A stretch of 33,054 bases of DNA, from contig CACYXC010000047.1 in assembly GCA_902778285.1 (NCBI GenBank), forward strand, positions 1 to 33,054. The letters run 5' to 3'. Both the position numbers and the translations under genes were made by a program. Shown piece by piece: positions 22,500 through 33,054 of the stretch. How positions within the stretch are numbered: the first letter of the stretch is position 1; each line of letters begins with the position of its first letter. The notes below the pieces were generated by a model. It did no database searches and was not told the DNA's origin. It saw only the letters and a program-made list of their open reading frames with translations. The stretch comes from Oscillospiraceae bacterium. Lineage in GTDB: Bacteria; Bacillota; Clostridia; Oscillospirales; Oscillospiraceae.

Positions 22500-24587
22500 T
22501 CAGAGCAAACCTACCAGGTTGAAAGCCAGGATCAGGCCGGAAAACACGATTGAGACCGTGGAGCAGAGCTTGATCAGAATGTTCAGGCTTGGGCCAGCGG
22601 TGTCCTTCAGCGGGTCGCCCACCGTGTCGCCCACAACAGCAGCCCTGTGCTGCTCGCTGCCCTTGCCTCCGTGGTGCCCCGCTTCGATATACTTTTTGGC
22701 GTTATCCCAGGCGCCGCCGGCGTTGGACATAAACACCGCCATGGCAAAGCCGGATACGGAGACGCCGCCCAGCATCCCCACCACGCCGACCGGGCCCAGC
22801 AGCAGGCCTGTCACGATGGGCACGATCACTGCCACCAGAGCGGGAGCGATCATCTCATGCAGTGCCCCCTTGGTGCACAGCGCAACACACTTGGCGTATT
22901 CGGGATCCGCCTGATAGTCCATGATTCCCTGGATCTCCTTGAATTGGCGGCGGACCTCCAGAACAATGGACTGGGCCGCCCGTTCCACGCCGTCCATGGT
23001 GAGGGAGGAGAAGAGGAAGGTCAGCAGCGTACCAATAAACAGCCCCACCAGCATCAGGGGATTGGTAAGGGACAGGTCCAGCACCTCCTCGGTTTTGGCC
23101 TGCACTATGTCCACATAGCTCACCAGCAGCGCCAGCGCGGTAAGAGAGGCGGAGCCGATGGCAAAGCCCTTGCCGGTGGCGGCAGTGGTGTTCCCCAGGG
23201 AGTCCAGCGCGTCGGTGCGCTCCCGCACTTCTTCAGGCAGCTCCGCCATCTGGGCGATGCCCCCGGCGTTGTCGGCAACAGGGCCATAGGCGTCGGTTGC
23301 CAGCGTAATGCCCAGGGTAGAGAGCATACCCACGCCTGCGATGCCGATGCCATAGAGCCCCTGGTCAAAGGATTTTGCCCCGCCGGCCGCAAAAAAGCTC
23401 AGCAGTACCGCTGCCGCCACCACCAGGATCGATACCATAGTGGAGCGCATGCCCAGGGACAGGCCCCCGATGATGATGGTCGCGCTGCCGGTCTCGCTCT
23501 CCTGGGCCAGCTCCCGGGTGGGCCTGTAGGTATCCGAGGTGTAGTACTCGGTAAAATAGCCGATCACGCAGCCCCCCACCAGGCCGCTGAGGATGGCGAT
23601 ATACACGCCCCAGCTGCCGATCAGGAGCTTGGTCAGCGGCGCTGCCAGTACGGCCGCCAGAATGGCCGCGGAATAGGTGCCGATGCGCAGGCTGCGCAGA
23701 AGCGCCTCCTGGCTGGCATTTTCCTTGGTTCGGATCAGAAAGGACCCCAGGATCGAGCACAGAATGCCGCACACCGCAAGCAGCAGCGACAGCAGCATTC
23801 CCCGAAAGCCATAGCCAGCGATTCCGCCCAGGGCAAAGGTAGCCAGGATCGAGCCCACGTAGCTTTCGTAAAGGTCAGCGCCCATGCCTGCCACGTCGCC
23901 CACATTGTCGCCCACATTGTCCGCAATGGTGGCGGGGTTGCGCGGGTCATCCTCGGGGATCCCCGCCTCCACCTTGCCGACCAGGTCAGCGCCAACGTCG
24001 GCAGCCTTGGTATAGATGCCGCCGCCTACGCGGGCAAACAGCGCCATGAAGCTGGCGCCCATGCCGTTCATGACCATGACGGATCCGATCTTCTCCGGCT
24101 CGGTATAGCCCAGGCCGTAACGCAGCAGGAAAAACCACAGGGTCACATCCAGCATGCCCAGGCCCACCACGGAAAACCCCATCACGCTGCCGGAGGAGAA
24201 GGCTACCTTCAGCCCTTTGTTCAGGCTTTCAGTGGCAGCGTTGGCGGTGCGTGCGTTCGCAGAGGTTGCGATACGCATGCCGATAAAGCCCGCCAGCATG
24301 GAGAAGATCCCGCCGGTGAGGAATGCGAAAGGCGTCACCCGGGAGAGCATTTGCCCGCCGGAGGCGAAGGCCAGCGCCAGAAGCAGCAGGAATACGATGG
24401 CAAAAACCTTAAACACCGTGGTATACTGATGCTTTAGATAGGCATTCGCGCCAGCCCGGATGGCCGCTGCGATCTTCTGCATGCGCTCATTGCCTTCGGA
24501 GACCGAAAGCACCCTCCGTCTCTGCAGAGCAGCAAAGCCCAAAGCCAGAGCAGAGCCCAAAAAACCAAGCAAGAAATATCGTTCCAT
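22500..24587 (-). CDS. hppA: Membrane-bound ion-pumping pyrophosphatase (K+-dependent type)
   Basis: 695 residues, full length, with about 16 predicted membrane helices. It couples pyrophosphate hydrolysis to H+ or Na+ export. The catalytic region is [19 protein letters not shown] (197-215) and [20 protein letters not shown] (223-242), which bind Mg-pyrophosphate. [10 protein letters not shown] (465-474) has Ala at 469 where K+-independent enzymes have Lys, so the K+-dependent class is predicted. Whether it pumps Na+ or H+ is not decided from the sequence. The ATG has AAAGGAAG upstream, and the gene starts 18 bases after the PfkB kinase gene, so it is the last member of the HAD-mutase-kinase cluster. 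Confidence 0.95.
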
Positions 24588-24605: not shown

Positions 24606-25484
24606 TCAATAGAATTCCCGGATATATGCCTTCACGTCGGCAAGGCTGCCCCGAAACACACCGGGAGTCTCCATTTTCAGGGAGACGCAGGCTGTTGCGT
24701 AAAGCAGCGCCTCCTCCACATCGTGCCCAGTCATCCGCATGGCCAAATACGCACCGAAGGTAGTATCCCCCCGGCCAGTTCGCCCGGAGAGATTGCGCGC
24801 CTTCACCGGACAGCGGAACACCCTCTCCCCGTTGCATACCAGCATTTCCGCATTGTGGGAGACCATGACCTCTCCGGCGCCCCAGGCCACCAGCTGTCTG
24901 GCAGCGGCTTCCCGGTCACGCAGGCCCGTGAGCATCTCCGCCTCGGCGGCGTCGGTTTTGAAAAAGTTCATCCAGGGCAGGAAGCGCAGCTTCTCCTGCC
25001 AATCATGCAGCGCCATTGGGCCGCCCTCGTTGTGCCGCAAAAAGCCCTGGGCATCCGCTGAAAGCAGCCCTCGCCTGTGCAGCTCCTCCAACAGCTCCTC
25101 AGGGAAATCGCCGTACAGCAGTCCCGCCAGATGGCAGAGCTTCCAGGAGATCACCGGCAGCTCTGCCGGCAAAATGGGGTCAGACTGGGCGGCGCAGCTG
25201 GATCTGCGGCGCTCCCGGTCCGGTGTGAAATACTCATTGCGCATTAGCGTTGTCTTTGCCGACGGAAGAAGGGCTTTGTCCTCCTCAGGCATCTGGAATA
25301 CGTCCAGAATGTCCCGGTCCTCCGGGGCGATCTTCACCGCCGCGAAGACGCTGGCTCCCATGGCCCGTGCTGCCGGCGTGCAGAAGGTCACGGCACCCCC
25401 GGCACTCCGATCCTCTGCGCCGGTATAGTCGATGTTCACGTCTCTCGTGGCAGGGCCCAGGATCATCAAATCATATGGTTTCAT
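24606..25484 (-). CDS. PfkB-family sugar or nucleoside kinase
   Basis: 292 residues from the ATG at 25484, with GAGGGG upstream; a longer in-frame start would run into the terminator stem. The C-terminal PfkB signature is GRTGRGDTTFGAYLA (234-248), where Asp240 is the catalytic base and GRGD forms the anion hole. Near the N-terminus are DVNIDY (15-20) and the substrate-binding SAGGAVTFCTPAARAMGA (27-44). Substrates of this family are sugars, nucleosides or sugar phosphates; this one resembles no single characterised subfamily clearly. It lies between the permuted mutase, after a terminator, and the pyrophosphatase gene. Confidence 0.88.
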   Translation of the reverse strand: MKPYDLMILGPATRDVNIDYTGAEDRSAGGAVTFCTPAARAMGASVFAAVKIAPEDRDILDVFQMPEEDKALLPSAKTTLMRNEYFTPDRERRRSSCAAQSDPILPAELPVISWKLCHLAGLLYGDFPEELLEELHRRGLLSADAQGFLRHNEGGPMALHDWQEKLRFLPWMNFFKTDAAEAEMLTGLRDREAAARQLVAWGAGEVMVSHNAEMLVCNGERVFRCPVKARNLSGRTGRGDTTFGAYLAMRMTGHDVEEALLYATACVSLKMETPGVFRGSLADVKAYIREFY

Positions 25485-25497
25485 ATTGTATCCCCTC

Positions 25498-25534
25498 AAA
25501 AAAGCTTCCCGCCCGCTCATGTCGGAGCGGGCGG
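25498..25534 (-). terminator. Terminator or attenuator between the mutase-like gene and the kinase
   Basis: CCGCCCGCTC (25509-25518) pairs with GAGCGGGCGG (25525-25534). On the minus strand it is followed after a short spacer by six T residues (25503-25498). It could end the HAD-mutase transcript or lower expression of pfkB-hppA. Confidence 0.8.
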
Positions 25535-25552: not shown

Positions 25553-27121
25553 TCAGGCCTGGTATTCGGTCCCTGTGCCAATGGTCATGGCATCATAGGC
25601 CCGCCTGACCTTGGCATAGTTCTTGTCCCGGTCCAAGGCAACCCCCCGTCCAACGCCGTCCACGATCACGCCTCTGCCGATTTTGGCCAGCTTCTTGTCA
25701 AGTGTCCGGAGCATGGCCGGGGCTGATCCCGGCTCGGTGCTGCGCCCGTCGAAGATGATGTGCAGATAGACCTGCTCCACCCCCTCGGCCATCTCCGTCA
25801 GCATCAGGGGGTAGTCGATGCAGCCATGGCTGGATTTCTCCGTCAAGTAGGCCAGCAGGTGCAGAGCGGTCCCCTCTTCCCTGGCTGCGTCTATGGCATG
25901 AAGGAAGACGGGGTTGCGTTTGAAAGAGCCGTCCTGAATGGCCTGATCCATGCGCACGTCATCCTGTGCTACGATCCGGCCGGCACCAAGGTTGTTGTGT
26001 CCGGCCTCTGAGTTGCCGGCCTTGCCCGCTTTCAGGCCTACGTCCTCGCCGGAAGCGCGCAGCTTGCTGCGGGGGTATTTAGCCAGCATCTCATCCCACT
26101 CGGGGGTATGAGCCAAATAGATGGCGTCGCCCTCGTCCCCGGTTCCGAAGCCCCAGCCATCCAGGATGATGAGCATCATCCTGTCGTTTTTGAAGTCCGG
26201 CGTCTCCATGAGGCTCCGTCCCGTCATCTCCGCCGGCTGCTCCAGCCCCAGCACCGAGAGGATGGTGGGGGCCACATCGCCCAGGCGGCCATCCCGCAGC
26301 CGTACTTCCCTGCCCTTGGGGTCCAGGATCAGGAAGGGCACCAGATTGGTGGTGTGGGCCACATGGGGCTTGCCCTCCTTGGTGTAGAGGGCTTCGATAT
26401 TGCCGTGGTCCGCCGTCACCGCCACCACATAGCCCTTGTCCCTGGCATAGTGGGCAACCTGACTTACATAGCGGCTGATGGCCGCAGCGGCTTCCAGCTT
26501 GGCGTCCTTATTGGCGGTATGGCCAATGACGTCGCCGTTTGCAAAGTTTGTGACGATAAAGTCATAGCCTTCGTCCACGGCCTGCTCCACTTTCTCGGCT
26601 ACGGTGGGCAGACTCAACTCCGGTTTCTGGTCGAAGGGAATCCCCTTGGGTGAGGGAATGCACAGATCCGTCTCTCCCGGGAAGGGCTGGTTATAGCCGC
26701 CGTTGAAGAAGAAGGTCACGTGGGCAAACTTCTCCGATTCCGAGCAGTGGAACTGCCGCAGCCCCGCCTCACTGAGAACCTGAGCCAACGGTTTCTCTAC
26801 CCGCTCAGGAGCAAAGGCGATGGGAAGACTCTTGAACTTTTCGTGATACATAGTCATGATCGCGAAATCCAGCTTATCCAGATACTCACGGTCAAAATGG
26901 GGGAAATCCTCTTCCGTAAAGGCTTCGGTCAGCTCGATCTCCCGCTCGCCCCGGCGGCAGCAGAATACCACGTGGTCGCCGTTTTGGATCTTGCCCACAG
27001 GCTCGCCCTTCTCATCCACGAGGACCATAGGCTCCAGGGAGTAATCGGTCTGCCCCTGGGTATAGGCTTTCTCCACCGCCCTGGCCAGTGCCTCGCCTCC
27101 GTGAAAGCTTTTGTCAAACAT
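25553..27121 (-). CDS. Circularly permuted 2,3-bisphosphoglycerate-independent phosphoglycerate mutase-like protein
   Basis: 522 residues, the normal length of iPGM, but the two halves are swapped. Residues 1-305 correspond to the usual C-terminal part: AYTQGQTDYSLEPMV, GDHVVFCCRRGERE, EKFAHVTFFFNGG, NFANGDVIGH (192-201), TADHGN (236-241), AHTTN (255-259) and the usual end EMTGRSLM. After the short linker ETPDFKND, residues 314-522 are the usual N-terminal part: MLIILDGWGFG (316-326), GNSEAGH with the phosphoserine Ser371, and DRDKNYAKVRRAYD just before the stop. Metal ligands Asp321, Asp197, His201, Asp238, His239 and His256 are present. Two substrate-site positions differ: DGRS (458-461) for DGRD, and HGC (432-434) for HSH. 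ATG with AAGGAGG nine bases upstream; it starts 14 bases after a HAD gene. Confidence 0.9.
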   Translation of the reverse strand: MFDKSFHGGEALARAVEKAYTQGQTDYSLEPMVLVDEKGEPVGKIQNGDHVVFCCRRGEREIELTEAFTEEDFPHFDREYLDKLDFAIMTMYHEKFKSLPIAFAPERVEKPLAQVLSEAGLRQFHCSESEKFAHVTFFFNGGYNQPFPGETDLCIPSPKGIPFDQKPELSLPTVAEKVEQAVDEGYDFIVTNFANGDVIGHTANKDAKLEAAAAISRYVSQVAHYARDKGYVVAVTADHGNIEALYTKEGKPHVAHTTNLVPFLILDPKGREVRLRDGRLGDVAPTILSVLGLEQPAEMTGRSLMETPDFKNDRMMLIILDGWGFGTGDEGDAIYLAHTPEWDEMLAKYPRSKLRASGEDVGLKAGKAGNSEAGHNNLGAGRIVAQDDVRMDQAIQDGSFKRNPVFLHAIDAAREEGTALHLLAYLTEKSSHGCIDYPLMLTEMAEGVEQVYLHIIFDGRSTEPGSAPAMLRTLDKKLAKIGRGVIVDGVGRGVALDRDKNYAKVRRAYDAMTIGTGTEYQA

Positions 27122-27135
27122 ACTGTCTTCCTCCT

Positions 27136-27867
27136 TCAACGTAGCGGCGGGAAAATTTCCAGCAGCTGTGAAAAATGCGTAATAAACCGGTCCGGCCGGT
27201 TCTCGTCGGTGACGGTCTGCGGTTTCTTGCCGGGGTACTGCACTGCCACCGTCATGCCCAGGCCTGCGGCCTTGGCACCGACAATATCCCGGTTCAGATT
27301 GTCCCCCACGTAACAGGTGCGCTTGGGGTCTGAGCCGCATTCCTCCAAAGCGTAGTAATAGATAGCGGGGTGAGGCTTTCGGATCAGACACACAGAGGAC
27401 TGCTGCACACTCTTGAAATAGGGGCGCAAGCCGTCACGATCCAGCCACTCATCGACCTCATGCGTGCCCACCAGATCACTGACAATGGCAAGCGTATAGC
27501 CGCGGGCGAATAGCTCCTTCACGGTTTCGATGCCGCCGTCGGTGACCACCCGCTCGCCCTTGGTACGGCGATAGGCATAGGTCATCTCGTCCGCCGCGGC
27601 CTCCACCCGCTCCCGCGGGAAGTCATAGGCCAGCCAGCGTGTCCAGAGCTCCTTCACCGGCGCCTCGCAGTAGAAATGCAAGGCCCACTCCCGATACTTG
27701 TCATAGCGGGGCTCAATGACCCGGTGATAGAACTCTGTAGGGTCCTCGTCGGTGCCCAGGCACTTTGTGATCACAGTCTTGGCCTCCAGCTCATAGGCCG
27801 GATCTTTACGAATGACCCGGAAGGTGTCCCCAAGATCCACAAATATCGTATTAATGTTCTGTTCCAT
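27136..27867 (-). CDS. HAD-like hydrolase, paralogue 1
   Basis: 243 residues. Haloacid dehalogenase fold with a helical cap inserted after motif I: nucleophile Asp11 in FVDLGDTF, motif II IVSDLVG, motif III Lys in IRKPHP, motif IV VGDNLNRD. The usual second Asp of motif I (DxD) is Gly13. The cap carries ELWTRWLAYDFPRERV, a pattern shared with its neighbours. Its ATG overlaps the preceding gene's TGA by one base, so translation is coupled; the mutase-like gene follows after 14 bases. Likely a sugar-phosphate phosphatase or phosphotransferase; the substrate is unknown. Confidence 0.88.
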   Translation of the reverse strand: MEQNINTIFVDLGDTFRVIRKDPAYELEAKTVITKCLGTDEDPTEFYHRVIEPRYDKYREWALHFYCEAPVKELWTRWLAYDFPRERVEAAADEMTYAYRRTKGERVVTDGGIETVKELFARGYTLAIVSDLVGTHEVDEWLDRDGLRPYFKSVQQSSVCLIRKPHPAIYYYALEECGSDPKRTCYVGDNLNRDIVGAKAAGLGMTVAVQYPGKKPQTVTDENRPDRFITHFSQLLEIFPPLR

Positions 27868-28598
27868 CAGGTACCTCCCTGCAAAATCGGCAGCTCCAGA
27901 ATATCCAGGAAGCGATGTACAATATAATCGGGACGATTGGCGTCGGTGATGATCTTTTTCTTCAGCTTTTCCGGGCTGATGAAGAGGATGTTGGCCCCGA
28001 TGCCCGCCGCTATGGCGCCGGTGATGTCCCGATCCAGATTGTCAGCCACAGAGGCGCATTCGCCGGGTTCCAGGCCGAGCTGCTCACAGCCCAGCAGGTA
28101 CATCCGCGGATCAGGCTTGCGCAGACCCGTCACCGGAGAAAGGATCACCGCGTCGAAATACTCGTCCAGCCCGTCGGCCTTCAGCCACTCAGGAATCTCG
28201 TACTCGCCGATGAGGTTGGAGATGATGCCAAGCTTGTAGCCCCTGGCGTGGAGGGTCTCGATGACTTCCCGTCCGCCCTCCACCACATGTCGCAGGCCCT
28301 TGACCTGGCGGTACTGGAAGGTGATCTCGTGGCATATCTCCCGCACCTTCTCCTCGTCCATCTCCGGCAGGAGCCACTTGTGCCAGAGCTCGAAATCGCT
28401 GCTCTCCTTCATCTCGCCCAGGGCCCAATCCCGATAGGGCAGATAGCGCTGCTCCACCATGTCGATGAAGGCGTCTGCGTCCTCGTAGCCCGCCAATTCC
28501 GCCATGCGCCGTTTGGCCTTTTCCTGGTGCTCGGGCACGTTTTCCGCAATGCGGAGGGTGCCGCCCAGGTCAAAAAATACACCTTTGATCTTCTTCAC
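27867..28598 (-). CDS. HAD-like hydrolase, paralogue 2
   Basis: 243 residues from the GTG at 28598, with GAGGAG six bases upstream; the much longer frame to 28787 overlaps the previous gene and is not used. Motif I is FFDLGGTL (Asp10, second Asp replaced by Gly), motif II IISNLIG, motif III LRKPDP and motif IV VADNLDRD, where the usual GDN is ADN. The cap has ELWHKWLLPEMDEEKV. It starts ten bases after paralogue 3 and overlaps paralogue 1 by one base. Confidence 0.88.
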   Translation of the reverse strand: MKKIKGVFFDLGGTLRIAENVPEHQEKAKRRMAELAGYEDADAFIDMVEQRYLPYRDWALGEMKESSDFELWHKWLLPEMDEEKVREICHEITFQYRQVKGLRHVVEGGREVIETLHARGYKLGIISNLIGEYEIPEWLKADGLDEYFDAVILSPVTGLRKPDPRMYLLGCEQLGLEPGECASVADNLDRDITGAIAAGIGANILFISPEKLKKKIITDANRPDYIVHRFLDILELPILQGGT

Positions 28599-28608
28599 GG
28601 TTGTCTCC

Positions 28609-29337
28609 TCATGCTCTGTGCGGGAACAGATCCAGCAGCTCAGGAATGGACTTGATGGTGTAGTCCGGCAGTACTGTGGGCGCCTTGCCTTCCCGGTCGG
28701 CGGTGCCGGCGTCTTCAAACAGCACCATAGCGCCGAAGTTTGCGGCCTTGGCTCCCTCCACGTCCCGAACCGGGTTATCGCCAACATAGGCGCAGTTTTC
28801 CGGGGCGCTGCCGATACAGCGAGCAGCCAGCAGGTAGATCGCCGGGTCCGGCTTGCGCAGGCGCACCTTGGACGAGAGGATCACGGTCTGGAAGCAGTCG
28901 GCCACACCGTCGCGGCACATCCAGTCGGGGATCTCGGTCTCGGTGATGGTGTTTGCGATGATGCCGAGCTTGTAGCCCCTGCGCTTCAGCTCCCGCAGGG
29001 TCTCCAGGGTGCCATCGTGCACAACGCGGCGGCCGTCATGGTCACGCCAAAGGCGGGTCAGCCTGGCGGCGTGGGGTGCCACACGCTCAGCGGGGTAGTC
29101 CGGCAGCAGATACTGCAGCCAGAGCTCCATTTCGGAGACATCCAAAAGCTCCGTCTTGGCCCATTTGCGATATGCCTTCCAATTCTTCTCGAGCTTGGCA
29201 AAAAAAGCGTCATGCTCTTCCGTGGAGCCGACAAGCTCCATCAGTTCTCTCTCTGCAGCGGCGGCAAACTCCTTATCCTCCACCACATAGCGCAGCGTCG
29301 CGCCAACGTCAAAGAAAATGGCTTCCAGGTTCTGCAT
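28609..29337 (-). CDS. HAD-like hydrolase, paralogue 3 (divergent motifs)
   Basis: 242 residues from the ATG at 29337, with GAGGA upstream; a TTG eleven codons earlier lacks a ribosome site. Motif I is FFDVGATL (Asp10; second Asp replaced by Gly), and motif II is IIANTIT, with Ala where the family has Ser or Thr. Motif III LRKPDP and motif IV VGDNPVRD are normal. The cap has ELWLQYLLPDYPAERV. The loss of the motif II hydroxyl suggests weakened or altered activity. Third from the downstream end of the four-gene HAD run. Confidence 0.87.
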   Translation of the reverse strand: MQNLEAIFFDVGATLRYVVEDKEFAAAAERELMELVGSTEEHDAFFAKLEKNWKAYRKWAKTELLDVSEMELWLQYLLPDYPAERVAPHAARLTRLWRDHDGRRVVHDGTLETLRELKRRGYKLGIIANTITETEIPDWMCRDGVADCFQTVILSSKVRLRKPDPAIYLLAARCIGSAPENCAYVGDNPVRDVEGAKAANFGAMVLFEDAGTADREGKAPTVLPDYTIKSIPELLDLFPHRA

Positions 29338-29376
29338 TTTTCCGTCCTCACTTTCTGCGTTTATGGTCAAACATTC

Positions 29377-30120
29377 TTATCGTTTCAATACAGACGGGAT
29401 TTCTGCCAGGTCCTCGATCAGGGCATCCGGCATGTAGCCCGAATGCTCCAGCCCCGCGTCCCGATGAGCGATACTGGGGTTTCGGATCTGGATCATCATG
29501 GCCCAGCCGGCATTGCGTGTGCCGATCACATCCCGGGAAATGGTGTCGCCCACATAGCAAAGCTCTTCCGGCTTCAGACCCATGGCTTTTTCCGCAATGC
29601 GGAAGATTTCCGGCGAGGGCTTGCGGATCCCAGTCTCGGCAGAGGTAATGACACAATCCATCAGCGCCTCGATGCCGTACTCGGCCAGGAAGTGCCGCAC
29701 GACAGAGCGTGAGATGATGTTGCTGATAACGCCCAGGTGCAATCCCATGGCTTTCAGCTCCATCATCGTCTCCTTCAGATGCTCGCGGCGCATCACGCAG
29801 GGACGCTCATAATCGTAAAGGAAGCTGAGTTCTTCGGCAAAGGGCTCGATCCGTTCGCGTTCAAGCCCGTATTCCCGGAGGTAATAGTCGCTCCAGATTT
29901 GCGCCGAGGGAAGTTCCCGCAGCGTTACTTCGGATTCATGCTTATAGACCTCGCTGTTAATGGCCAGACGCCCAGCCAAAAGCTCAGCGCCGCCTTCCAG
30001 CTTGATCCCATAATCGGAAAACCTCTCGATCAGCCGCTGCGCGAACCAGAGATCCCGTCCTGGGGGTGAGGAGGATTTGTGCAGTGTGCCGCCCAGGTCG
30101 AACAGTACCGCCTTGATCAT
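29377..30120 (-). CDS. HAD-like hydrolase, paralogue 4, first gene of the operon
   Basis: 247 residues from the ATG at 30120, with AGGAG about seven bases upstream. Motif I is LFDLGGTL (Asp8; second Asp replaced by Gly), motif II VISNIIS, motif III IRKPSP and motif IV VGDTISRD. The cap is more divergent (IWSDYYLREYGLERERI) and resembles that of paralogue 5 at the right edge of the window. It is the first gene after the promoter at 30172-30200, divergent from the LacI gene. Confidence 0.88.
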   Translation of the reverse strand: MIKAVLFDLGGTLHKSSSPPGRDLWFAQRLIERFSDYGIKLEGGAELLAGRLAINSEVYKHESEVTLRELPSAQIWSDYYLREYGLERERIEPFAEELSFLYDYERPCVMRREHLKETMMELKAMGLHLGVISNIISRSVVRHFLAEYGIEALMDCVITSAETGIRKPSPEIFRIAEKAMGLKPEELCYVGDTISRDVIGTRNAGWAMMIQIRNPSIAHRDAGLEHSGYMPDALIEDLAEIPSVLKR

Positions 30121-30145
30121 GCTATCGCTCCTTTCCGGCAATCTC

Positions 30146-30153
30146 AAACGTTT
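30146..30153. promoter_or_regulatory. Candidate operator of the HAD operon
   Basis: AAACGTTT, a perfect CG-centred palindrome of the LacI-family type, lies about 20 bases downstream of the HAD operon -10 box. An imperfect inverted repeat, ATTGTTTTAACGAT, lies upstream at 30224-30237. Which protein binds is not known; the adjacent LacI regulator is the obvious candidate. Confidence 0.45.
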
Positions 30154-30171
30154 CCGAACGATCTCAACCAA

Positions 30172-30200
30172 AAGATACCGCTTTTTCTTTCGCCCGTCAA
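30172..30200 (-). promoter_or_regulatory. Promoter of the HAD-mutase operon
   Basis: On the minus strand: TTGACG (30200-30195), 17-base spacer, TATCTT (30177-30172), about 50 bases before the first HAD gene. Confidence 0.65.
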
Positions 30201-30419
30201 GTATCTTTTGTCCACGAAAGTTGATTGTTTTAACGATATTACTCATTTTCTAAAACTTTCCGGAGCATTTTCGGATTATTTTCAGGTATTTCCCGGATAT
30301 TTTCAGAATTCGTGTAAATCATTTCCTCCACCGAGCATCTCAACCGGTTATTCAGGTTGAACTAACTGTATTTCGCTATAAAAATTCCATCGTTTTCGTT
30401 ATTTTACACAAAAATTTGC

Positions 30420-30448
30420 TTGCTTTTTTTGTGAGGGTGAGTTACAAT
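30420..30448 (+). promoter_or_regulatory. Promoter of the second LacI gene, with repeated TTTTCGT boxes
   Basis: TTGCTT (30420-30425), 17-base spacer, TACAAT (30443-30448). TTTTCGT occurs at 30393, 30450 and 30471, the last two 21 bases apart (two helical turns) and straddling the start point. They may be regulator half-sites. The remainder of 30121-30493 is AT-rich, with no gene. Confidence 0.6.
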
Positions 30449-30493
30449 GTTTTCGTGAATTGTACGGAAATTTTCGTTACAAAGGAGGAGCGT

Positions 30494-31516
30494 ATGAAAA
30501 ACGTCACCATCAAGGACGTGGCCAAAGCCGCCGGCGTCTCCTACTCCACCGTCTCCCGCGCGCTGACAGGCAGCCCCGAGATCAGCGAAGAAACCCGAAG
30601 CCGGATCCTGCAGCTTAGCAAAGATATGAACTACACGGCCAACACCGTGGCCCGGGCCATGGTGATGAAGACCACCAAGCTCCTTGGTCTGATCCTCACC
30701 AGTGTGAATAACCCCTTCATGTCGGAGCTTGCTTATCATATCGACCGGCAGGCCCGCGCCAGAGGCTACAACATTATCCTTTGCAACTCTTCCCGGGATT
30801 CTGAGCAGGAGCGGGAGCTCTTCGAACTGATGATGGGCCGCCAGGTCGACGGCATCCTCCTTCTCCCCTCCGGGATCGAGAGCTACAACAAGCTCCATCC
30901 CTATCTCAGTCGCATCCCCACCGTGTTCATCGGGGAGAACCTGCGTGAGGTGCCGGAGAGCTATGTATCTGTAGATAACTACCGGGGTGCCCAGATCGGT
31001 GTGGAATATCTGTATAAGCTTGGCCACCGCGATATTCTGTATTTCGGGCGGCGCCGGGGCAGCACGACTCACCAGCTGCGTGCAGAGGGCTATGCCGCCG
31101 CCTGTGAGCATTTCGGCCTCACCCCGCGTTATTGCAACAACACCTTTTCATTTTCCTCTGTGAAATACGGCTACCAGCTGGCCAAGCAGCTTTTTTCCAG
31201 GGAGCGGCATTTCTCCGCCATCTTCGCCGCTACAGACACCAACGCTCTTGGCATCATGCAGGCGGCGGAGGAGATCGGCCTGCGCATCCCGCAGGATCTG
31301 TCCCTCCTCGGCTTTGATAACATCCGGGACAGCAGCCTGCCCAGGATCGAGCTGACCACCATTGAGCAGCCGATGAAGATGCTGGCCTCCGTGGCGGTAG
31401 ACACTCTGCTTGACAAGATCCAGAACGATCAGGCCGGCTATTCCCACCGGATCCTCTCACCCGCATTGATTGAGCGTTCCTCCTGCGCTCCCTACACCCC
31501 GGCAGCAAAAAAATAA
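30494..31516 (+). CDS. LacI-family transcriptional regulator of the HAD-mutase cluster
   Basis: 340 residues from the ATG at 30494, with AAAGGAGG upstream; an earlier in-frame ATG lies in the promoter and is rejected. The helix-turn-helix is textbook (TIKDVAKAAGVSYSTVSRAL, residues 5-24), followed by a hinge (NTVARAMVMKTT) and the effector domain (LGLILTSVNNPFMSEL onward, GFDNIRDSSLPRIELTTIEQP near 275-295). It is a different protein from the first LacI regulator. Divergent orientation and the shared intergenic region make the minus-strand HAD operon its likely target. The inducer is unknown. Confidence 0.92.
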   Translation: MKNVTIKDVAKAAGVSYSTVSRALTGSPEISEETRSRILQLSKDMNYTANTVARAMVMKTTKLLGLILTSVNNPFMSELAYHIDRQARARGYNIILCNSSRDSEQERELFELMMGRQVDGILLLPSGIESYNKLHPYLSRIPTVFIGENLREVPESYVSVDNYRGAQIGVEYLYKLGHRDILYFGRRRGSTTHQLRAEGYAAACEHFGLTPRYCNNTFSFSSVKYGYQLAKQLFSRERHFSAIFAATDTNALGIMQAAEEIGLRIPQDLSLLGFDNIRDSSLPRIELTTIEQPMKMLASVAVDTLLDKIQNDQAGYSHRILSPALIERSSCAPYTPAAKK

Positions 31517-32334: not shown

Positions 32335-33054
32335 TTACTGCTTTGCCACAAGCTCCTGCAGCAGGGGCAGGACCTGGTATATTTCCTCGATCATATAGTC
32401 CGGCTCAAACTCCCGGCGAACGCCCGCGTCCTTTTCCCCGGTCAGCTTGGAGCCGATCTGGATCGCGCAGGCAAAGCCCGCCCGCTTCGAGCCGATGATA
32501 TCCCGGGAGACGGTGTCTCCCACATAAACACAGTCCTCCGGTCTTACGCGGAGCTGATGCGTGGATACAAAGAAAATATCCGGCCGCGGCTTGCGCAGCC
32601 CCGTCACCGAGGACAGGGTCACATCCTCAAAGAGGTCGCGAATTCCGTATCCCTCCAGACTGTCAAAAACCTGGTACATGGCGGCAGTGTTGCTGATGAT
32701 GCCTAACTTCAGCCCGAGCTCCCGCAGGCCCTCCAGCATCTCCCGCACACGGGGACGGAGGCTGCGGTGGTAGTGGGTCAACTCCCACATATAGGCAATC
32801 GGCTCGCAGAGAGGCTCCAGCACATCCCGCGGAAAGCCGAAATCGGCCAAGGCATAGTCGCGCCAGATGGGGATGGGCTTGAGCTCCACGTCACAATCGT
32901 CCCGGAAAGCGCCGTAGCGCTTCCAGCCCTCGTCCACGCGGCGCTTGAGCTCCGTCAGATCGACCTGAGGATCCAGCCCGCCCTCACGCAGCATCCGGTC
33001 CAGCTTTTCGATAGCGGCCCACTCCGAGCGTTCATCCACATAGATGTCCTCCAG
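32335..33054 (-). CDS. HAD-like hydrolase, paralogue 5 (5' end missing)
   Basis: The last 239 codons of the gene are present; the frame is open to the window edge, so the true start and the motif I nucleophile lie outside. Visible are the cap with IWRDYALADFGFPRDVL, motif II IISNTAA, motif III LRKPRP and motif IV VGDTVSRD. It is most like paralogue 4 across the river of the LacI and MgtC genes: both have AGxxxxIQI after motif IV. It probably belongs to the same expanded family, and further members may follow outside the window. Confidence 0.87.
   Translation of the reverse strand: MEDIYVDERSEWAAIEKLDRMLREGGLDPQVDLTELKRRVDEGWKRYGAFRDDCDVELKPIPIWRDYALADFGFPRDVLEPLCEPIAYMWELTHYHRSLRPRVREMLEGLRELGLKLGIISNTAAMYQVFDSLEGYGIRDLFEDVTLSSVTGLRKPRPDIFFVSTHQLRVRPEDCVYVGDTVSRDIIGSKRAGFACAIQIGSKLTGEKDAGVRREFEPDYMIEEIYQVLPLLQELVAKQ

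Follow-up and report, generated by a model that had tools for sequence, protein, structure and literature searches.

The DNA analysed here, referred to as the window, is a stretch of 33,054 nucleotides from an Oscillospiraceae bacterium (assembly GCA_902778285.1, contig CACYXC010000047.1). On its minus strand, a single unbroken frame of 522 amino acids, preceded by AGGAGG a few bases 5' of its ATG at 27121 and ending with the stop at 25553, encodes a protein (P0001) related to phosphoglycerate mutases of the iPGM type. The gene lies amid HAD-family genes, the outermost of them beyond an MgtC-like gene, and a PfkB-family kinase gene (Table 1); the two remaining products listed are those that we take to be a membrane-bound pyrophosphatase (22500..24587) and a LacI-type regulator (30416..31516).

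Table 1. Genes, protein segments and motifs of the permuted-gene locus (window coordinates)
Feature	Position	Strand	Basis
Circularly permuted iPGM-like gene, 522 aa (P0001)	25553..27121	-	Frame, Pfam, NCBIfam, 1ejj alignment
N-terminal part, aa 15-305 (canonical iPGM 219-509)	26207..27079	-	Alignment to 1ejj
Linker, aa 306-314, old C-terminus to old N-terminus	26180..26206	-	Alignment to 1ejj
C-terminal part, aa 315-521 (canonical iPGM 6-214)	25559..26179	-	Alignment to 1ejj
CCRRGERE, aa 54-61, for canonical N-F-R-x-D-R-A; R57, R60 = R261, R264	26939..26962	-	Alignments
GNSEAGH, aa 369-375; catalytic Ser371 = Ser62	25997..26017	-	1ejj alignment, A2 rows
SSHG, aa 430-433, for canonical GVHS; His432 = His123	25823..25834	-	Alignments
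DGRS, aa 458-461; Ser461 replaces Asp154	25739..25750	-	Alignments
HAD-family protein, DLGDT, 14 bp upstream of permuted gene	27136..27867	-	Profile and clustering
HAD-family protein, DLGGT	27867..28598	-	Profile and clustering
HAD-family protein, DVGAT	28609..29370	-	Profile and clustering
HAD-family protein, DLGGT	29377..30246	-	Clusters with other HADs
Fifth HAD, truncated at window end, beyond MgtC-like gene	32335-33039		
PfkB-family kinase, TM0415-like, RxGRGD	24606..25520	-	Closest match and motif of PMC5931981
Membrane-bound pyrophosphatase-like protein	22500..24587	-	Sequence; cluster in 32/93 stretches
LacI-type regulator (presumed), divergent	30416..31516	+	Sequence; cluster in 62/93 stretches

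Comparison with the iPGM of G. stearothermophilus (1ejj), our reference for alignment and residue numbering, resolves P0001 into two blocks, residues 219-509 of 1ejj coming first and residues 6-214 second (phmmer, E 7.5e-110 for the whole protein). The Pfam profiles fall in the same exchanged order, with Metalloenzyme (profile positions 64-251) at residues 104-294 followed by iPGM_N at residues 392-519, and the GpmI equivalog model TIGR01307 matches P0001 in two stretches with 470.9 bits, above its cut-off of 330.65; the other GpmI model, NF003897, gives 391.3 bits against a cut-off of 862, and permuted copies scored piecewise in genomes stay under the TIGR01307 cut-off. The canonical order of metal/serine segment, phosphotransferase domain and second metal segment is absent from P0001. 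What characterizes a circular permutant is present, namely, a contiguous frame, two complete halves, new ends that are adjacent in the parent and a short linker. The initial annotation of this DNA had placed the second part before the first within one frame, with new termini that neighbour each other in the canonical chain; the 1ejj, Pfam and NCBIfam blocks bear out the former and the positions of residues 214 and 219 the latter, while the linker, given there as eight residues, comes out at about nine (306-314). P0001 is a natural circular permutant of iPGM, with which it shares ancestry. The canonical chain is opened between residues 214 and 219, inside the phosphotransferase domain, and its old ends are bridged by the short linker. 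Both iPGM domains are kept but, because the cut falls inside the phosphotransferase domain, the usual iPGM domain boundaries place the phosphatase domain within it, the reverse of the canonical arrangement.

An AlphaFold2 model built from 50 permuted sequences is confident (pLDDT 93, pTM 0.78), and a Foldseek comparison with the PDB retrieved 22 chains at E<=0.001, all of them iPGMs. The matches cover 228-330 aligned columns with TM 0.37-0.48, partial coverage that is to be expected of a permutant because Foldseek is a sequential aligner, which cannot superpose one over its full length. The structure prediction proposed in the initial annotation as a check thus yielded a confident model with exclusively iPGM neighbours among its significant matches.

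The permuted order recurs well beyond the window. Under an E-value limit of 1e-80 for the permuted gene, where the best canonical piece reached 1.4e-67, it was detected in 12 of the 102 genomes of the genus, source genome included, as well as in two of six genomes from the genus of G155 and three of 87 from the family of the latter. With scoring confined to the top three or four candidates of each genome, at least two of 394 genomes of the order, at least 12 of 398 genomes of the phylum and at least two of 301 genomes from the phylum of G932 (the Levilinea saccharolytica genome) carried it. Genome matches mostly cover nearly the whole query in a single piece, the exceptions being G518 and G810 (partial), G074 (frame-broken) and G092 (residues lost in frame across the junction). 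A search of named genomes for a stretch specific to the permuted proteins confirmed 205 loci, 80 of which were analysed: 74 have a complete frame, all in the permuted order (L048, mentioned below, is counted among them), and the other six (L053, L074, L088, L107, L115 and L120) are contig-cut or frame-broken. The record titles place these loci in Clostridia/Bacillota and Chloroflexota, two mostly anaerobic groups, and the carriers include the cultured L. saccharolytica KIBI-1 (L119; G932) and L124 (CP070811.1, genome G933), the record of which is titled a chromosome. In L031/L032 (G092) and L048, 25 residues corresponding to P0001 286-310 are lost in frame across the junction, through either deletion or assembly collapse.

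The gene is under purifying selection, with dN/dS of 0.08-0.13 in five same-length pairs with the window gene, rough ratios given that dS is near or above 1. Considered on its own, before relatives were searched, the window could have been misassembled here, or two gene fragments could have been joined, but the identical order in many separate assemblies and in a cultured isolate, together with the low dN/dS across the gene, reduces this reading to a negligible probability, and the recurrence in the genus, the phylum and the named loci rules out an assembly artefact. The same recurrence supports the true circular permutation claimed at the outset, for which homologues of the same order had been proposed as a check; these were found in many Bacillota and Chloroflexota assemblies, including the cultured strain and the chromosome-titled record. 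A viral or plasmid origin was also considered and rejected: none of 27 pattern matches to the permuted-specific stretch in viral contigs was confirmed as a relative, and all 44 matching plasmid records are below 60% identity, with the 20 listed each matching in two pieces, as expected of canonical genes.

For phylogenetic analysis, the permuted proteins were rotated to the canonical order (L101 and L125 being left out of this alignment), and 60 of them were combined with 32 canonical proteins, a set from which the canonical L149, L150 and L152 are absent. The permuted and canonical proteins are parted by one branch with SH-aLRT support of 100. A chimera, with halves from two unrelated iPGM paralogues, might be imagined, as a route through tandem duplication and trimming would involve two copies, but either half by itself (67 rows) sets the permuted proteins apart by a single branch, with support of 99 and 99, and the half-trees rule out this reading, which we accordingly deem very improbable. 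Within the permuted side, clade A comprises Clostridia and Anaerolineae-type loci, and clade B the phylum families f67, f80, f86 and f92. Besides these two clades, the genome G947 (L161/L162) encodes a strongly diverged permuted protein, the long branch of which attaches between the permuted and the canonical proteins and which possibly represents an early offshoot that would reveal the sequence of active-site changes. This protein has FYDLRGERE and LGRRG where the others have FCCRRGERE and DGRS. The permuted lineage is apparently old and of single origin, with the rooting and the placement of G947 being unsure.

The seven metal ligands of canonical iPGM, which we take to be D12, S62, D403, H407, D444, H445 and H462, correspond to D321, S371, D197, H201, D238, H239 and H256 of P0001, all invariant in the 50 rows of the A2 set. 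The same pattern of seven is reported for the C. elegans iPGM (PMC5382265). Of the nine substrate contacts named for iPGM in another study (S62, H123, R153, D154, R185, R191, R261, R264 and K336; PMC3886921), eight are kept and invariant in the 50 A2 rows, and the ninth, Asp154, is replaced by Ser in all 62 permuted rows and by Gly in G947. The motifs around the metal ligands and the kept contacts were found in 62 of 62 permuted rows, in every case arranged in the permuted order. The initial annotation had rightly considered the metal ligands and the phosphoserine to be kept and had made no mention of the Asp154 replacement.

Fourteen columns, several of them near substrate contacts, discriminate 60 permuted from 27 canonical proteins. 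The family-wide changes include SSHG for GVHS, C-R-R-G-E-R-E for N-F-R-x-D-R-A and L for M in the MDR motif, and clades A and B have one Arg more and one Asp less near the contacts, that Arg being missing from G947. The A2 rows were collected by a CRRG pattern, with an ORF filter that also required DGRS, and both motifs are therefore there partly by selection; DGRS nonetheless occurs in every complete frame of the named loci. Twelve of the 62 rows (10 from clade B, L033 and L034) were collected by E-value alone, and the 62 include at least one identical pair (L092 and L034). Because the catalytic residues are conserved, the two-metal, phosphoserine phosphotransfer chemistry is presumably retained, and the gain of Arg with the loss of Asp in clades A and B would point to a different or more acidic substrate. 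Since Asp154 is missing in the permuted proteins examined, these should not be presumed to act as phosphoglycerate mutases.

Gene neighbourhoods were compared in 93 of 96 stretches (L100, L127 and L128 excepted), some genomes being present twice, for example, as L068 and L139. Counted over whole stretches, protein clusters of HADs occur in 82 of the 93, LacI regulators in 62, PfkB kinases in 50 and pyrophosphatase-like proteins in 32, and those of ABC components in 45 (ATPase, a cluster that may include unrelated ones), 42 (binding protein) and 29 (permease). At least one HAD lies immediately upstream of the permuted gene in 81 of 93 stretches and exactly four in 54; among the Chloroflexota-titled loci, HADs are upstream in 11 of 12, the gene of the twelfth being at a contig edge. 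Motif I is readable in 290 of 325 HAD members and takes the form DxGxT, without the second Asp, in 288. The four readable HADs of the window likewise lack the second Asp of DxDxT, and in the relatives the prevailing motifs, from the permuted gene outward, are DLGDT, DLGGT, DVGAT and DLGGT. A candidate HAD fusion in L105/L106 was rejected, the upstream residues not being HAD-like and the long frame being taken as an overlap.

The closest match of the window kinase, TM0415, is a PPi-dependent myo-inositol kinase, and RxGRGD is given as the mark of such kinases in the respective study (PMC5931981). This motif is present in 50 of 52 PfkB cluster members, the other two being fragments of 149 residues, and the acceptor motif ADAQGFxR in only 39 of 52, so that the acceptor may vary. 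Of the residues named there, the window kinase retains K171, R229, R232 and M266 together with the acceptor residues D11, N78, Q141 and R145; F221 is not kept. A homologue from L. saccharolytica is reported to have PPi-dependent activity on myo-inositol (PMC5931981); no such kinase adjoins the permuted gene of this species in L119. The RxGRGD kinase and the adjoining pyrophosphatase-like gene, recurrent as they are in relatives, could constitute a pyrophosphate-based salvage module.

Contexts differ between the clades. The HAD array was observed in clade A, and three clade B stretches (L129, L130 and L135) carry, next to the permuted gene, a regulator, presumably of the GntR type, a protein that matches cyclic 2,3-diphosphoglycerate synthetase (with E 1.3e-133 in L129) and an ABC system. 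Cyclic 2,3-diphosphoglycerate has been described as confined to hyperthermophilic methanogenic archaea (PMC10690619); in these three stretches, bacterial homologues of its synthetase lie in a transporter operon beside the permuted gene. In family f86, both the HADs and the synthetase are missing around the permuted gene, and an ABC system of another type is found some genes off. The best PDB match of the clade B binding protein (L134 copy) is a pyridoxal-phosphate binder, followed by AfuA (4r72) and many ferric-binding proteins; its fold was discarded as an indicator of the substrate, because the predicted structure (pLDDT 89.9) resembles ferric-, citrate-, opine- and sugar-phosphate-binding proteins too broadly to single out a ligand. 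In nine Chloroflexota-titled loci (L096, L109, L110, L114, L116, L119, L121, L122 and L126), an ApgM gene lies within two genes after the permuted gene, and a phosphoribulokinase/uridine-kinase-like protein, c11, also follows. Identification of c11 as 2-phosphoglycerate kinase was discarded, as NCBIfam gives phosphoribulokinase and uridine kinase types only.

In the source genome, a canonical GpmI (688 bits), the presence of which elsewhere in the genome had been raised as a point to check, is encoded on another contig next to genes that, from their sequences, we take to be tpi and pgk. The permuted gene is thus an extra one in this genome, which has an ordinary gpmI besides. We profiled 34 genomes, 31 with the permuted gene and three without (G006, G009 and G012); 20 of the 34 exceed the GpmI cut-off, in every case with a canonical match. 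Canonical GpmI over the cut-off is missing in 11 of the 31 carriers (G017, G109, G112, G588, G661, G919 and G932-G936), among which ApgM exceeds its cut-off in G588, G661, G919, G932, G934, G935 and G936, and dPGM in G017, G112, G932 and G934, and by a combined match in G935. Neither GpmI, ApgM nor dPGM is over the cut-off in G109, a genome 81% complete, or in G933 (L124), where an ApgM fragment scores 189 against 320 bits and dPGM-type matches are sub-threshold. G012, which is 99% complete with 5% contamination and has no permuted gene, also has all three models under the cut-off. The permuted enzyme would mostly not be the housekeeping mutase; in G933, it is a candidate for the sole phosphoglycerate mutase.

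What the permuted enzyme does can be approached from its active site, its neighbours and these co-occurrence data. We consider it moderately probable that it is an accessory phosphomutase or phosphotransferase, with a small organic phosphate obtained by import or salvage as its substrate, rather than a glycolytic mutase, because Asp154 is lost along with other active-site changes and its operon partners are HADs and a PPi-type kinase, joined in relatives by an ABC importer. Against this stand the variation of context between clades (HAD array, cyclic 2,3-diphosphoglycerate synthetase or, in f86, neither), the retention of eight of the nine contacts listed in PMC3886921, co-occurrence compatible with mutase activity, and G933, which has no other intact known phosphoglycerate mutase over the cut-offs. 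More tentatively, the permuted proteins may form a distinct family of phosphomutases or bisphosphate-handling phosphotransferases in organic-phosphate salvage, in which a new substrate arrived together with the permutation and with an active site made more basic by the loss of Asp154 and, in clades A and B, by the extra Arg. Candidate substrates would be inositol phosphates, suggested by the clade A neighbour that resembles PPi-dependent myo-inositol kinases, or 2,3-bisphosphoglycerate, suggested by the synthetase neighbour in part of clade B.

A genuine, though permuted, phosphoglycerate mutase, serving as a conditional isozyme or as the mutase of genomes without GpmI, appears rather unlikely to us. 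It would fit the complete set of metal ligands, the eight contacts kept of the nine, the TIGR01307 score above the equivalog cut-off and the 11 of 31 carriers without canonical GpmI, two of which (G109 and G933) also lack ApgM and dPGM over the cut-offs. However, Asp154 is Ser or, in G947, Gly throughout, nine of these 11 carriers have an ApgM or dPGM match over the cut-off, and it is the canonical gpmI of the source genome that sits with pgk and tpi. Still less probable is that the protein has become a phosphatase (phosphohydrolase) of phospho-acids or phospho-polyols, having lost the transfer step together with Asp154. The metal centre is intact, and several diagnostic changes do cluster in the phosphotransferase domain near the substrate contacts, but the equivalents of R153, R185, R191, R261, R264 and K336 are invariant in the 50 A2 rows, beyond the needs of a plain phosphatase, and HAD proteins, often four, already adjoin the gene.

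To our knowledge, circular permutations are unusual among enzymes of central metabolism. The initial annotation knew of no described natural permutation in iPGM, and our search among open-access papers likewise found no description of one. A survey of bacterial phosphoglycerate mutases reports that iPGM paralogues are rare and contains no word starting with 'permut' (PMC2964296). The permuted enzyme, apparently old and maintained by selection, provides a natural experiment on how a two-domain, hinge-closing enzyme copes with new termini within a moving domain and on whether the permutation accompanied a substrate change, and it is directly testable because a cultured strain carries the gene. 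Automatic annotation can be expected to label such proteins GpmI, as P0001 passes the TIGR01307 cut-off, and this mislabelling could put a false phosphoglycerate mutase into metabolic models.

Among known families, phosphopentomutase gives only weak, one-stretch matches to P0001 (29.5 against 254 bits for NF009049 and 23.3 against 256 bits for NF003766), and P0001 is not a member. ApgM, the archaeal-type iPGM, belongs to the same superfamily as the permuted protein; its model (TIGR00306) matches P0001 weakly in one stretch (30.5 bits, far under the cut-off of 320), and an ApgM-like gene lies near the permuted gene in nine stretches. The closest relative is GpmI (TIGR01307; 1ejj, 1o98 and 1o99), with which the permuted protein has in common both domains, the seven metal ligands, the catalytic Ser and eight of the nine contacts listed in PMC3886921. 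Unlike GpmI, it has its halves swapped, Ser in place of Asp154, the SSHG and C-R-R-G-E-R-E motifs and L for M in the MDR motif, and in the source genome it is encoded away from pgk and tpi.
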